From NCBI RefSeq assembly GCF_900636515.1, contig NZ_LR134287.1, positions 1,798,001 to 1,862,000 on the forward strand: DNA of 64,000 bases, given 5' to 3'. The translations under genes were made by a program, and so were the position numbers. Source of the DNA: Neisseria animalis. Lineage in GTDB: Bacteria > Pseudomonadota > Gammaproteobacteria > Burkholderiales > Neisseriaceae. The notes beneath the pieces were generated by a model. That model ran no database searches. It was not told the origin of the DNA and saw nothing but the letters and a program-made list of their open reading frames with translations. This document shows positions 5,244-64,000 of this stretch, piece after piece; the stretch's first letter is position 1; each line of letters opens with the position of its first letter.

Positions 5244-6053
5244 TCAGGCATAGGTCAGTTTCAACGGCATAATCCCTGTTTGGCTAAATTCGGCGTGTGC
5301 CTTGACTTCCGCCAAACGGCGGCAGATTGCTTCGGTAACGGCTTCCGCGCGGGAACGGTCTTCCTCGGTAATCCGTTCCGGCTGCCGTCCGAACAAAGCC
5401 ACATCCAACAAACGCTCGGCATGTATGCCCGCACGGTAACGGTGGCGTACAGCCGCCGCCTGTTCGTCAAAAGCGGTTGCCACCACGCTGCTGCGCGTCA
5501 GCGCGATGCCCAATGCGGCATCTTCTCCGCCAAACCGCCTGAACAATCCGTCTTGGGGAAAACCGCCGCAGGCCAATAAAATGCTGCGGCGAAATACCAT
5601 GTTTCCACCCACCGTCATCGCCAGCCGCTGCCATGCTTCCGAAAATCCGGCGTGTTCGGTATATCGTTCGGGGAAGCCCCACGGTTTCAACTTCAAACGC
5701 ACCAAACTCAAATAATCAAACTGTTCCAATGCCAAATATGCGGCAGACAGCACATCGGTTTCGTAAACATCATCGGCGTCCAGAAATGCCGTAAAATCCG
5801 CCTGACTCTGCAAAGCCCCCCAATTTCGAGCCACAGACACACCGCTGTTGCGCGGCAGAAATTCAGCGCGGACGTTGGCATACCGCGCCGCCAACGAGCG
5901 TATCAATTCCGCCGTACCGTCTTGCGAACCGTCGTCCACCAGCCACACCAGCGAAGCACACGGCTGCCCGACGGCACTTTCCACCGCTTCTTCCAGCGTA
6001 TCGGCGGCATTGTAGCAGGGAATAACAATATCCAAAGTAGGTTTGCGGCTCAT
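5244..6053 (-). CDS. Family 2 glycosyltransferase
   Basis: 269 residues with the GT-A nucleotide-sugar fold of family 2: DIVIPCYNAADTLEEAVESA at the N terminus, VDDGSQDGT, then the metal-binding DADD (92-95) and later GGEDAALG, the usual catalytic-base region. No membrane segment. Acceptor and donor sugar cannot be read from sequence; a role in lipooligosaccharide or other surface glycan synthesis is only a guess. The ATG at 6053 has AAAGG 8 bp upstream; the open frame further upstream runs through a DUS pair and an old CREE-like element. Stands alone, convergent with ampD. Confidence 0.85.
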   Translation of the reverse strand: MSRKPTLDIVIPCYNAADTLEEAVESAVGQPCASLVWLVDDGSQDGTAELIRSLAARYANVRAEFLPRNSGVSVARNWGALQSQADFTAFLDADDVYETDVLSAAYLALEQFDYLSLVRLKLKPWGFPERYTEHAGFSEAWQRLAMTVGGNMVFRRSILLACGGFPQDGLFRRFGGEDAALGIALTRSSVVATAFDEQAAAVRHRYRAGIHAERLLDVALFGRQPERITEEDRSRAEAVTEAICRRLAEVKAHAEFSQTGIMPLKLTYA

Positions 6054-10452: not shown

Positions 10453-11184
10453 ATGTCCGACCACCGTATCAACCACGAACCCGCCTTCCTACTTGCCTCC
10501 ACCCCGTGGCGCGAAAGCAGCCTGTGGCTGGAAATGTACAGCCGCCGCTACGGACGGGTTGCCTTACTGGCGCGCAGCGCACGCAAACGCATGAGCGAAT
10601 TGCGCGGCATACTCGTACCCTTCGTTCCCATCAGCGCATCATGGTACGGCACTCAAGAATTAAAAACCCTGCACCGCGCCGAATGGCTGGGAGGCTGGCA
10701 ACAACCGCAAGGGCGCGCCTTATTCAGCGGGCTGTACATCAACGAAATCATGCTCAAAATGACTGCGCGTGAAGACCCTCAACCCGAATTGTTCGACAAA
10801 CTTTCCGCAACCCTGCAAACCGTCTGCACCGAAAACAACCACATCGCCGCCCTGCGACGCTTTGAATGGACCATGCTGACCCTGCTCGGACACGCACCCG
10901 ATTTGCATCACGACCAAGACGGTTTGCCCGTCCGCGCCGACAAACAATATTGGCTCATGCCGCAAGACGCGTTACGCCCGTATTCTCCAAACGATACCCC
11001 GCCGCCGCAAGGCATAACCGTAGGAGGAGATGTTTTAATCCAACTGCGCGACGGCGAATTTGCAGACGGCTTTGCCCTGCAGCAATCTTTAAAAATTACC
11101 CGCCTGCTGCTGGATTTCCACCTGCCCGACGGCATTACTTCCAGACAGGTATTGCAGCAGCTACAACAATTCCAAACGGCATAA
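10453..11184 (+). CDS. recO: DNA repair protein RecO
   Basis: 243 residues. RecO binds DNA and, with RecR, loads RecA on SSB-coated gaps. N-terminal OB fold (PAFLLASTPWRESSLWLEMYSR..GRVALLARSARK) followed by the helical domain; the proteobacterial form without the four-cysteine zinc site. A DUS is translated near the C terminus as FADGF (TTTGCAGACGGCTTT at about 11059). Start ATG 10453 follows a DUS and lacks a strong ribosome site. No era or pdxJ neighbour. Confidence 0.9.
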   Translation: MSDHRINHEPAFLLASTPWRESSLWLEMYSRRYGRVALLARSARKRMSELRGILVPFVPISASWYGTQELKTLHRAEWLGGWQQPQGRALFSGLYINEIMLKMTAREDPQPELFDKLSATLQTVCTENNHIAALRRFEWTMLTLLGHAPDLHHDQDGLPVRADKQYWLMPQDALRPYSPNDTPPPQGITVGGDVLIQLRDGEFADGFALQQSLKITRLLLDFHLPDGITSRQVLQQLQQFQTA

Positions 11185-59697: not shown

Positions 59698-61278
59698 TTA
59701 ATGGCGGAAATGGCGGATACCGGTTACCACCATCGCCATGCCGTGTTCGTCCGCGGCGGCGAACACTTCCTCGTCGCGCATCGAACCTGCGGGGTGGATA
59801 ATCGCTTTGATGCCTTGTTCCGCAATCACATCAATGCCGTCGCGGAACGGGAAGAATGCGTCAGAGGCGGCACACGCGCCGTGCAAATCCAGATTCGCAT
59901 CTTGTGCTTTGCGGGCGGCGATGCGGGTGGAATCCACGCGGCTCATCTGACCTGCGCCGATGCCGTAGGTCTGGCCGCCTTTGCCGAATACGATGGCGTT
60001 GGATTTCACGAATTTCGCCACGTTCCACACAAACATCAGGTCCTGCCATTCCTGCTCGGTCGGTTGGCGTTTGGACACTACTTTCAAATCCTCGCGGCGG
60101 ATTTGGTGGATGTCGGGCGTTTGTACCAGCAGCCCGCCGCCGACGCGTTTCAATTCGAAGCGGTTGGCACCGGCCGAGAGCGGCACTTCCAACACGCGCA
60201 CGTTTTTCTTGGCGGCGGCGATTTCCAAGGCTTCGACGGTAAACGACGGTGCCATCAATACTTCCATAAACTGGTTGTCGGTGATTTGTTTCACCGTTTC
60301 GCCGTCCACTTCGCGGTTAAAGGCGATGATGCCGCCGAACGCGCTGGTGGTGTCGGTGGCGTAGGCCAGTTTGTAGGCGGTCAACGTGTCGGCAGCCACG
60401 GCCGCGCCGCACGGATTGGCGTGTTTCACAATCACGCAGGCGGGCTGGTCGAAGGATTTGACCGCTTCCCAAGCCGCATCGGAATCGGCGATGTTGTTGT
60501 AAGACAATTCCTTGCCCTGCAATTGTTTGTACGCGCTCAAGCTGCCCGCCGCCGGATAAATGTCGCGGTAAAACGCGGCTTGTTGGTGCGGGTTTTCGCC
60601 GTAGCGCATATCCTGCACTTTTACCCAGCTTTGGTTGAACTGGCTCGGGAACGGGTTGACCTCCGGCTCGCCCGCCAGTTTTTCGTCTGACAGGGAAGTC
60701 AGATAATTGGAAATCATGCCGTCGTATTGGGCGGTGTGGCTGAAGGCTTTGCGCGAGAGGTTGAAACGGGTTTTGTCGCTCAATGCGCCGGCGTTGCTTT
60801 CCAGCTCGGCGGCAACAGCCGGAAAGTCGGCGGTATCGGTGACGATGGCGACGTGTTTCCAGTTTTTCGCGGCGGACCGCACCATGGTCGGGCCGCCGAT
60901 GTCGATGTTTTCAATTGCGTCTTCCAAAGTGCAGCCGGGTTTGGCGATGGTGGCGGCAAACGGATAGAGGTTGACGGCGACCAAATCGATGTTGCCGATT
61001 TCGTATTCTTCCATTTTGGCAACGTGTTCGCTCAAATCGCGGCGCCCCAGGATACCGCCGTGGATTTTCGGGTGCAGCGTTTTCACGCGGCCGTCGAGCA
61101 TTTCGGGAAAGCCGGTGTAATCAGCCACTTCGATAACGGGCACGCCCGCATCGGCCAGCAGTTTGGCGGTGCCGCCGGTAGACAAAATCTCAACGCCCAG
61201 CTTGTGTAAGGTTTGGGCAAACTCAACCACGCCGGTTTTGTCGGAGAGGCTGATGAGGGCACGTTTTACGGTTGCCAT
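59698..61278 (-). CDS. purH: Bifunctional AICAR transformylase / IMP cyclohydrolase
   Basis: 526 residues; last two steps of IMP synthesis. N-terminal cyclohydrolase ([41 protein letters not shown] in part, then [10 protein letters not shown]) and C-terminal transformylase ([26 protein letters not shown] with Lys-His, [13 protein letters not shown]). AAAGGAAACCAA precedes the ATG at 61278. Stands alone, with a terminator. Confidence 0.97.
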
Positions 61279-61628
61279 TTGGTTTCCTTTTATGAGAGAA
61301 GTTTCGGAAGAAAACGGAAATTCAAAGCCGTACCCATGCAGATTTTACGAAACTGAAACGAAGTTTCTGCGAAGCTGAAACGGCTTTGGGAAAGTAAATT
61401 TTTTACAGCGCGTATTATCCGCCATTTTGGAGTTTTTGGCAGTAAAAATGCCAACAATTTTAAGGGGAATTTGCCAAAAGGCCGTCTGCAAAATTGATGG
61501 TTCGGGCGGTTTGGGCAAAGAATATTTTTGGCAAATCTTGAATGTGTTGCGAAATAAGATTACGGACTTCCCTTATTTACAGGATATAAAATTTAAAGAA
61601 ATATTAAGCCGGCCCTCCGTTCCATTAT
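61279..61628. other. Intergenic region upstream of purH
   Basis: About 350 bp, one DUS at 61489. The first 100 bp hold repeated GAAACTGAAACG / GAAGCTGAAACG words. AT content rises after 61500, in contrast with neighbours, which fits the phage remnant that follows. No gene supported. Confidence 0.4.
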
Positions 61629-61727
61629 CTAGGCAAGGTCAGCCATCAATGGGCGGCAGCTTGATTCCTTTTTCGCTTGTTTTAAAACCGCCACCAGCTC
61701 GCTGGTGTTGATTTCGATTTCAATCAT
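61629..61727 (-). pseudogene. Fragment of a Mu-like phage virion morphogenesis gene (gpG-like)
   Basis: On the minus strand an ATG at 61727 opens MIEIEINTSELVAVLKQAK, then RPLMADLA and a TAG. By memory this matches the start of phage virion morphogenesis (Mu gpG-like) proteins, normally about 150 residues, whose N terminus has this ...LRPLMADIA pattern. The reading stops after 32 residues and the following bases do not continue it clearly, so this is a remnant. Confidence 0.6.
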
Positions 61728-61747
61728 GTTGGAATAAATTCCATATA

Positions 61748-61828
61748 GGCGGGTGTTACCAATGGGCAACGGGTCGGTGTTATGTTTCTCATACGCCGGT
61801 TTATGTCAGTTCGAGTCCGGCCACCGTC
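61748..61828 (+). pseudogene. tRNA-shaped sequence 1, degenerate
   Basis: GGCGGGTG at the 5' side can pair with CACCGTC at the 3' side if one G bulges; GCCGG and CCGGC form a T-stem around a loop that contains TTCGAGT plus about 10 extra bases; a D-arm-like ACC...GGT follows TT. The anticodon arm is poor (about 4 pairs). Not a functional tRNA as read. Confidence 0.4.
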
Positions 61829-61847
61829 TATATACTTTCTCAAAGGC

Positions 61848-61912
61848 AAGAGGATTTCCTATTGGTAAAGGTTAGGTGTTCCTATTATGCAGGTTCGATT
61901 CCTGCTCCTCTT
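61848..61912 (+). pseudogene. tRNA-shaped sequence 2, short anticodon region
   Basis: Perfect 7-bp acceptor (AAGAGGA with TCCTCTT) and perfect T-arm (GCAGG-TTCGATT-CCTGC). Only 34 nt lie between, against about 41-44 normally; a D-like CCT...AGG arm and a TAGG-TGTT-CCTA hairpin fit there, but no 7-nt anticodon loop. No CCA follows. Total 65 nt. Confidence 0.5.
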
Positions 61913-61986
61913 TCCTTATTCATCGTCCGGTTCTGTCTTTGTGCAGAACCCGTTTTGCCTGTTTGGCATCAGCAATACCGGCACGG

Positions 61987-63249
61987 TTAATCTTTTTCAT
62001 TTTTCTGCAAACCTGAAGCCACTTGACTCAACTTCCCTTGTATTGCCCGCAACTGTTCTCCGGCAGTATTCAGCTTGTTTTTCAACCTTATGTTCTCTTG
62101 ATAAAGATTAACCAGTGTTTTTTCTAATCCCACATGCCCTTGATAAAGATTGGCCAACTTCTCCTCGGCGGGAACCGACAATTTGATGCATTCAATCAAA
62201 TCAGGGGTAATATGCGTATCGACTGCATTGGCCAGTAGCTTTTCTACAAAACAAGACAATAAAAAGTCCTTGCTTTGATTGAAATTTTTCGCAAATTCAA
62301 ATGAATCTGCAAATAAAGATACCAACTCAAGGGCTATTTCACCCGCGTTCTTTTTGCTAAAGCCACGACCGGAAAAATTATGATGTTTTGCAATCTCAAA
62401 ATTATCATGATTCAAATAACCGCAACCGCCAAAGTGGTCATAACAGTAAACCGGCTTATGGCTTAACAGAGCATATTGAACCGTTTTCCCTATCGTTACA
62501 ATAACATCATACCCGCCAATCAGTTGCGGCGTAATTTCAACTTGCGTTGTCCGCATACCGATAAAATCAACAGTAACGCCGTTTTGACCCAGCAATTTAG
62601 CCGCTTCAACCATTTCCGTAGGCGGATGATTGGAAATCACGGCAATTTTCTTTAATTGCGCCAATCCCGTATTGGCTTGAACAAACTCATCAGGCGCGGC
62701 ATTGTGGCTGACCGTTACTTGCTGCGGCGGTATGCCGAAACTGCTTAATTTTTCACGCGTTTCCTCGCTATTGGCAACAAAGTTTGCCTGCAGCTTCTTC
62801 ATGTAAGGCAAAGCGCTCATTTCAAACATTTCAAATGGCGACAAATGTACTGAAATGATTTTCAATGAAAAATTTGATTTGTCGATTTGTGGATTCGCTG
62901 ATTCGCTGATTCGCTGATTCGCTGATTCGCTGATTCGCTGATTCGCTGATTCGCTGATTCGCTGATTCGCTGATTCGCTGATTCGCTGTTTTCCCGTTTG
63001 TTTATGTTTAAACAAACGGGAAAACAGCGAATGCTGAGACCATACCAAGTCGTATTCTGACACATCAATATCATCGATGTTTCCAATAAGATCCGCCGCA
63101 GCAAAATGCTGCACCACAGGCCGGCCGAAAACATTGGCATAAACATGAACCACATCATTTTTCGCTTTAAAGTAGCGGTACAACTCTAAAATCTGTACTT
63201 CACTGCCTGCATACACTGCCAACTGATTGGTTAAAAGCAATATTTTCAT
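61987..63249 (-). CDS. Glycosyltransferase-like protein with phase-variable repeat tract
   Basis: 420 residues. MKILLLTNQLAVYAGSEVQ resembles the start of GT4-type (GT-B) transferases, and VSHNAAPDEF and IGGYDVIVTIGKTVQYALL suit the second Rossmann half. Residues about 88-119 are four copies of ISESANQR, encoded by 12 octanucleotides; one unit more or less shifts the frame. A C-terminal coiled coil (AEEKLANLYQGHVGLEKTLVNLYQENIRLKNKL in part) follows. Base composition is more AT-rich than neighbours, suggesting transfer. Likely surface glycan modification; target unknown. As sequenced the frame is open (ON). Confidence 0.75.
   Translation of the reverse strand: MKILLLTNQLAVYAGSEVQILELYRYFKAKNDVVHVYANVFGRPVVQHFAAADLIGNIDDIDVSEYDLVWSQHSLFSRLFKHKQTGKQRISESANQRISESANQRISESANQRISESANPQIDKSNFSLKIISVHLSPFEMFEMSALPYMKKLQANFVANSEETREKLSSFGIPPQQVTVSHNAAPDEFVQANTGLAQLKKIAVISNHPPTEMVEAAKLLGQNGVTVDFIGMRTTQVEITPQLIGGYDVIVTIGKTVQYALLSHKPVYCYDHFGGCGYLNHDNFEIAKHHNFSGRGFSKKNAGEIALELVSLFADSFEFAKNFNQSKDFLLSCFVEKLLANAVDTHITPDLIECIKLSVPAEEKLANLYQGHVGLEKTLVNLYQENIRLKNKLNTAGEQLRAIQGKLSQVASGLQKNEKD
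62892..62987 (-). repeat. Octanucleotide tandem repeat, 12 perfect units
   Basis: GATTCGCT repeated 12 times on the plus strand (AGCGAATC on the coding strand), 96 bp without a mismatch, inside the glycosyltransferase-like gene. Eight is not a multiple of three, so copy-number change switches the frame; no stop arises within the tract in any frame. Confidence 0.97.
62983..63030. repeat. Perfect 22-bp inverted repeat next to the octamer tract
   Basis: Arms 62983-63004 and 63009-63030, 4-nt loop TGTT. The left arm starts within the last octamer (TCGCTG) and the right arm ends in CAGCGA, a partial octamer. It is translated as FSRLFKHKQTGKQR. Confidence 0.95.
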
Positions 63250-63375
63250 TAGTCAATGTTTCCTTGATTGAGTCTTGGCGAAAAATTTAGGGTTTATCGG
63301 GTATTATCCTTAATTCATACATGATCGATAATGAAACGGGAAATGCTGTTCAATACTTATTGTGATAATCCCAAG

Positions 63376-64000
63376 CTACGTTTTGCAGACGGCCTTTTCC
63401 CGCCCCAACCACTTCGGCAACATACCTGCCAGCAGCGCTGCCGCAATCACAACGACTACACCCGATACGGCCAACGGGGAAAGCCGCTCGCCCAGCAACA
63501 CTACCGCCAATAATACGCCGAACACCGGCTCAAGCGAAATCAACAGCCCCGACAAGTTGGCCGATACGCTGTTCATGCCTTTGTTCCACAACCAATAGGC
63601 AAACCAACTGCAACCGATACCCAAATACAGTAGAGCCGCTATGCCTTGGACATTCCAATCAATCTGCGGCGCAGGCGACAACACCAGCACAACCGGTAAG
63701 CACATAACTGCCGCCGCCGCAATCGACACCGGCGTATATGCTGCCGCGCCGATGTCGGCAATCAGCTTCTGCGTCGGGCGCATGACCAAGCAAAACACCA
63801 ATCCTGCCAAAAACACCAGCAGGCAGCCGAACAAATCAATTTCTCCGCCTTCCTCGCCACCGCCTAAAATCAGCAGCAACACGCCGAAAAATGCTGCCGC
63901 GCCGCACAACCAGTGATACCACTCTGCCTTGTCGCGAAAGAAGAAATGGCCGACCATCACCATCAAAATCGGCTCCAGCCCGACGATGGTTACCGCACTG
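63376..64000 (-). CDS. EamA/DMT family transporter (N-terminal part outside window)
   Basis: Open from the window edge, 207 residues visible. Ends of the first EamA half (SAVTIVGLEPILMVMVGHFFFRDKAE) and the full second half (GIAALLYLGIGCSWFAYWLWNKGMNSVSANLSGLLISLEPVFGVLLAVVLLGERLS in part) are clear; about ten helices expected in total. Drug/metabolite exporter, substrate unknown. The C-terminal EKAVCKT is encoded by a DUS (AAGGCCGTCTGCAAAAC). The true start is beyond 64000. Confidence 0.9.
   Translation of the reverse strand, partial: SAVTIVGLEPILMVMVGHFFFRDKAEWYHWLCGAAAFFGVLLLILGGGEEGGEIDLFGCLLVFLAGLVFCLVMRPTQKLIADIGAAAYTPVSIAAAAVMCLPVVLVLSPAPQIDWNVQGIAALLYLGIGCSWFAYWLWNKGMNSVSANLSGLLISLEPVFGVLLAVVLLGERLSPLAVSGVVVVIAAALLAGMLPKWLGREKAVCKT

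Follow-up and report, generated by a model that had tools for sequence, protein, structure and literature searches.

A candidate octanucleotide slippage switch in an apparently acquired glycosyltransferase-like gene of Neisseria animalis

Repeat units of one to nine bases have been described across 118 Neisseria genomes (PMC5953494). Table 1 of that survey, which in the sections consulted describes itself as not comprehensive, contains no octamer (the units listed are of 1, 2, 4, 5, 6, 7, and 9 bases), and the same sections state that units longer than pentamers have received little attention in Neisseria so far. Octamers are known from Haemophilus influenzae, where, in the portion of the paper available to us, the hmw loci are reported to carry 12–15 copies of GCATCATC (PMC2651432). 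No octamer locus of Neisseria was found in the accessible portions of the open-licence literature on neisserial phase variation. The locus described here belongs to a 64,000-nucleotide stretch of the N. animalis genome (contig NZ_LR134287.1, hereafter the window), and its main features are the following.

61987..63249, minus strand: glycosyltransferase-like gene, 420 codons, intact, with an ATG start
11 nt 5' of this ATG: AAGGA, recognized by eye
62892..62988, minus strand: 12.125 perfect copies of AGCGAATC (97 bases), coding for (RISESANQ)n, a candidate slippage switch
62868..62891, minus strand: two degenerate octamers, CACAAATC and GACAAATC, with 3 mismatches each

The tract obtained a TRF score of 194, with 100% matches. 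An earlier note on this DNA had reported twelve perfect octamers, which is correct except for the coordinates (62892..62987), which fall one base short. Once the tract was removed, the longest period-8 run in the window was 16 bases, and period-8 runs did not exceed 22 bases in 100 dinucleotide shuffles of the window. The 16-base double unit AGCGAATCAGCGAATC gave 11 overlapping matches in the 2,240,945-base genome, all of them within the tract, and the triple unit was found in one of 83 Neisseriaceae genomes, namely its own. Plasmid records searched with the tract by megablast gave no match, and four 16-base readings of the tract were present in no open-licence paper searched. Short reads easily mis-size long repeat tracts, and the copy number might for this reason be an assembly artefact; however, the genome is a single contig with 100% completeness, and the assembled length keeps the gene intact, an outcome with a chance of one in three. 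We regard an artefact as extremely improbable.

The same octamer was also observed in a Burkholderia arboris record (L089, 1496-1591; 12 perfect tandem units) and in an IMG/VR contig (L045, from 4747; 4 perfect units plus variant tandem units). Both were rejected as relatives of the gene, because their DNA contains no relative of it. Such arrays in unrelated DNA could reflect convergence or a mechanism that favours them.

All three frames of the tract encode the same cyclic peptide without a stop, and translation thus confirmed the earlier claim that the tract itself is neutral to phase. An octamer that is stop-free in every frame is not remarkable; 65% of octamers have this property, or 52% if weighted by the composition of the gene. 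The frames beyond the tract were tabulated for script-made copy numbers from 6 to 18 (13 in all). With 6, 9, 12, 15, and 18 copies, the 300 codons 3' of the tract are open to the normal stop; with 7, 10, 13, and 16 copies a stop occurs 9 codons past the tract, and with 8, 11, 14, and 17 copies 19 codons past it. The claim that the downstream 300 codons are in frame only at multiples of three was therefore borne out (5 of the 13 copy numbers are open), and the other phases do meet stops, as had been predicted (8 of the 13 modelled counts), at 9 or 19 codons and not at the "about 15" originally given.

The distribution of the gene was analyzed using one genome per species. Within the genus, the gene was present in one of 46 genomes, its own, and no match was found in the other 45 (41 of the 46 genomes have a completeness of 90% or more and no more than 5% contamination). 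Matches were given by 3 of 82 other genomes in the family (G427, G429, and G437), by 2 of 368 other genomes in the class sample, where G297 matched by the repeat alone, and by 3 of 140 genomes of the Pasteurellaceae, including that of Conservatibacter, which belongs to this family. The G297 match (L009, L010, L022) lies on a different, CAATCAAC-like array of 8-base repeats and was therefore discarded as a chance repeat match. A search of genome contigs returned Conservatibacter as the single relative, and searches of viral contigs gave no relative and one unrelated contig.

The relatives show at most about 50% identity to the window protein. Three homologues from Neisseriaceae (L018, L019, and L020) and the one from Conservatibacter (L007) align on both sides of the tract and lack the insert. 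The spacing between an LF/LL pair and the motif [KR]xxSVHLSP is 49 residues in the window protein, 10 in L007 and L019, and 8 in L018 and L020 (counted from the second LF in the window protein and in L019). As read from these alignments, the tract and its flank together amount to a net insertion of about 39–41 residues; MAFFT aligned the insert poorly. Just 3' of the degenerate octamers the codons start with NFSLK, and there the homology to L007 resumes. Since the homologues are continuous across the insertion point, the half 3' of the tract belongs to the protein, in agreement with what had been proposed from the sequence of the window. The tract might instead have a role at the protein level, with the length of the (ISESANQR)n loop being important, and not the frame. 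It is indeed in frame at 12 units and stop-free in every phase, and in the structure model it is a stretch of low confidence flanked by two strands, but all 12 units are identical at the DNA level, silent sites included, and the aligned relatives have no tract, which makes this explanation very unlikely.

In the structure model, the product of the gene is a GT-B glycosyltransferase, whose two Rossmann-like domains superpose on solved GT-B enzymes. Residues 102-121 have a pLDDT below 50, the insert is placed between strands 68-72 and 127-135, and a C-terminal helix of 60 residues is predicted. Compared with GT-B enzymes of the PimA, WaaG, and Campylobacter PglA type, to which its identity is 9–14%, the product is distinguished by this predicted helix and by a score below the Pfam GT4 cut-off: it obtained 25.2 bits with Glyco_transf_4 (PF13439, GT4), as compared to a gathering score of 28.5, and four matching relatives likewise remained under this value (15.9–27.2 bits). 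NCBIfam gave nothing above cut-off for the product, and no counterpart was found among solved structures searched by sequence.

The neighbours of the homologues were also considered. L018 and L020 adjoin rmlC and rmlD, and a homologue with 30% identity (L090) lies inside an annotated rfbC-rffG-rfbD-rmlA cluster (dTDP-rhamnose) on a Marinibacterium plasmid. L086 and L087 adjoin an ABC ATPase; its highest-ranking model matches, which stay below their cut-offs, are to exporters of teichoic acid and galactan. The dTDP-rhamnose genes found beside L018, L020, and L090 are not found beside the window gene, next to which no sugar or glycan gene was seen when the neighbours were inspected by eye; its own genome contains one rmlD gene above cut-off, far from 61987-63249. 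The description "glycosyltransferase-like" agrees with both the GT-B model and these neighbours. Judging from the model, the identity of the gene as an acquired glycosyltransferase is credible, and its product presumably has glycosyltransferase activity. A role in surface polysaccharide or lipooligosaccharide appears likely, and the glycan produced would be a surface one (lipooligosaccharide, capsule, or protein-linked).

The gene is located between purH and an EamA gene, in the following arrangement.

61493..63381: cassette of 1,889 bases that holds the gene, apparently acquired, between two inverted uptake-sequence copies
61479..61492, plus strand: purH-side uptake-sequence arm, AGGCCGTCTGCAAA, which aligns with the arm in G009
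63382..63395, minus strand: EamA-side uptake-sequence arm, AGGCCGTCTGCAAA, which likewise aligns with its counterpart in G009

The GC content of the gene is 41.6%, with respect to 58.1% of purH and 56.3% of the EamA stretch. In G009, which represents the closest of the species found, the site is without the gene. Apart from the own genome, it gave the best match for EamA (80% identity; 97.9% for its purH), and its purH and EamA are about 190 bases apart (L079), with an uptake-sequence hairpin between them. In the window, the gene lies between the two hairpin arms, which are separated by 1,889 bases. Both purH and EamA were seen in 8 of 23 Neisseria loci scanned (in the remaining 15, purH lies beyond the fetched stretch or is not adjacent), and this gene in none of the 23; the purH-EamA intervals differ among four examined of the 8. 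The gene therefore looks foreign in composition and distribution and was apparently acquired by this Neisseria lineage. The gain may have occurred by transformation, or else the gene may have been lost elsewhere and not gained in this lineage. Minimal mobile elements of Neisseria consist of a foreign gene between conserved genes common to several species, and the present arrangement, in which an apparently acquired gene has uptake sequences as flanks, is similar. No mention of purH was found in the part of the literature on these elements that was covered.

Between the gene and purH (61805-61912), two pieces resembling tRNA T-arms were noticed, TTCGAGTCC at 61810 and TTCGATTCC at 61894, possibly remnants of an integration site; ARAGORN found no tRNA in the window. 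The dominant uptake-like sequence of this genome is GCCGTCTGCAA, with 1,951 copies vs. 873 of the canonical GCCGTCTGAA, and 57 copies of the uptake-like sequence are contained in the window (e.g., 61479-61492). Among the other 45 Neisseria, GCCGTCTGCAA and GCCGTCTGAA have 501 vs. 10 copies in G032 and 443 vs. 358 in G030; in all the others GCCGTCTGCAA has at most 47 copies (30 in G009, vs. 2,954 of GCCGTCTGAA). The fragments CTGCAA and TCTGCA are absent from the main text of the 2013 paper on dialects (PMC3630211), and seven potential new dialects are mentioned, with no names given in the text examined, in PMC11316581.

We consider it probable that the gene is a simple-sequence contingency locus, encoding a GT-B glycosyltransferase switched by slippage. 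The tract is located in what would be the N-terminal domain of the apparently acquired GT-B enzyme, and if one unit were gained or lost through slipped-strand mispairing, the frame would shift by 8 bases. Because of this shift, the full enzyme would be made only at copy numbers that are multiples of three, and any other copy number would give a stub of about 115–152 residues. The ON states with 9, 12, and 15 copies would differ by 8 residues in the low-confidence stretch of the model, probably in a surface loop. At the level of DNA the anatomy of a slippage switch is complete, and the gene is a strong candidate for phase variation. The "probable ON/OFF switch" of the earlier note fits this anatomy in tract, frames, and homology; slippage in the cell and actual switching are what we infer from it.

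Two of the homologues are themselves broken at mononucleotide runs. L007 changes frame at a C9 run (5507-5515), and its second half runs on in another frame, which also carries a transferase domain of the WaaS/CpsH family. L020 changes frame at an A7 run (minus strand, 2275-2281); at this place its sister L018, which is open, has A8. Since the genome of L020 is a draft and has 7% contamination, this A7 is possibly an assembly error. L019 is open, and so is L021 in the part examined. Given the two breaks, at C9 and A7, the origin of frame-shifting runs may not have been a single event, and if both are real switches the family would have gained such runs at three different places. This suggests that frame-shifting runs were repeatedly acquired, at different positions, within a glycosyltransferase family represented in Neisseriaceae and Pasteurellaceae. 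The same observations bear on the possibility that the tract is real and no switch exists, the gene being a little-used acquisition and the tract a recent, almost neutral by-product of slippage. This would agree with the lack of a match in 45 of the 46 Neisseria genomes, with the AT-rich gene, with the neighbours, none of which is a glycan gene by eye, and with a promoter scan of 61250-64000, which gave 4 sites as compared to 4.6 in shuffles and none 5' of the gene start on the strand of the gene. However, the 420 codons are open, family homology is present on both sides, and two related genes have frame-breaking runs at other positions; we therefore hold the absence of a switch to be unlikely.

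In a 459-kb sample of the genome (the window plus 395 kb), other long tracts were found, including two pentamer tracts at DNA-methylase genes, which indicates that this genome carries other tracts of the slippage type. The pentamer tracts (L096, 8536-8593, and L102, 10714-10771; 11.6 copies each) are at N6_N4_Mtase genes, in regions of the own genome at 220-240 kb and 880-900 kb. One lies inside the 5' end of the methylase, beside a type III restriction gene, and the other precedes an EcoP15I-type gene, about 30 bases 5' of its ATG; in another methylase-like frame, a G12 run (L096, 1460-1471) was recognized by eye. The tracts at methylase genes are possible phasevarions. Counting both strands, the window contains 15 copies of the 12-mer TAAAATAAGAAT, which resembles a small repeat element; in L102 (about 10831-10919), ends similar to it border an inverted element about 90 bases long.

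At the octamer tract we also found a hairpin, which is new here; the earlier note does not speak of it, nor of the gene having apparently been acquired, nor of homologues interrupted at mononucleotide runs.

62981..63032, minus strand: perfect inverted repeat with 24-bp arms and a 4-nt loop

On the coding strand, the 5' arm (63009-63032) corresponds to the codons SLFSRLF, and the final seven bases of the 3' arm (62981-63004) are within the first octamer. This is the longest perfect hairpin of the window (loop up to 20), and the DNA fold of 62975-63040 as a single strand has an energy of -29 kcal/mol (z -11.5). Perfect hairpins did not exceed 14 bp in 200 shuffles of the gene and measured 7–10 bp in four family members. 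The counterparts of SLFSRLF in two relatives are AIFARLF (L007) and CLFASLF (L019). All or most of the 3' arm is within the insert, and its outer 13 bases are so by both alignments; in the gap-poor one, L007 IKQTDFSLK is set against window IDKSNFSLK, so that the whole 3' arm would be insert. That the inner 3' arm (codons KQT) is ancestral, given AAACAAACGG nearby in L007, was not retained as a fact.

The simplest reading of the hairpin would be fold-back copying, which is the most novel and the least certain part of our proposal. A replication fork would have folded back at the SLFSRLF codons and copied them in reverse, and the resulting 24-base inverted duplication would have created the first AGCGAAT. 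Slippage would then have multiplied the first octamer, perhaps aided by the older degenerate octamers just 3', and the remaining hairpin may still raise slippage. We put forward tentatively, with somewhat less than even confidence, that the locus still records how a phase-variation tract was born, by fold-back copy followed by slippage; this caution is due in part to the disagreement of the two alignments on the 3' arm, and the proposal is drawn from a single genome, whose relatives at this gene reach about 50% identity at most. If true, hairpin-templated insertion would be a route from ordinary codons to ON/OFF switches, and the hairpin offers a rare view of the possible beginnings of a repeat switch.

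The locus is similar to the slippage-type phase-variable genes described in Neisseria, glycosyltransferases included, in its pure tract, predicted frame-dependent expression, and surface-glycan type enzyme. It differs from those surveyed, as far as the consulted sections of the survey cover them, in its octamer unit and in a gene found in no other Neisseria genome searched. The octanucleotide tracts of H. influenzae have an equal unit length; in the portion of the source available, however, they have other sequences and lie upstream of or between genes (PMC2651432), whereas the tract described here is inside an open reading frame. If it switches, an octamer-driven glycan switch would be added to the known neisserial repertoire.
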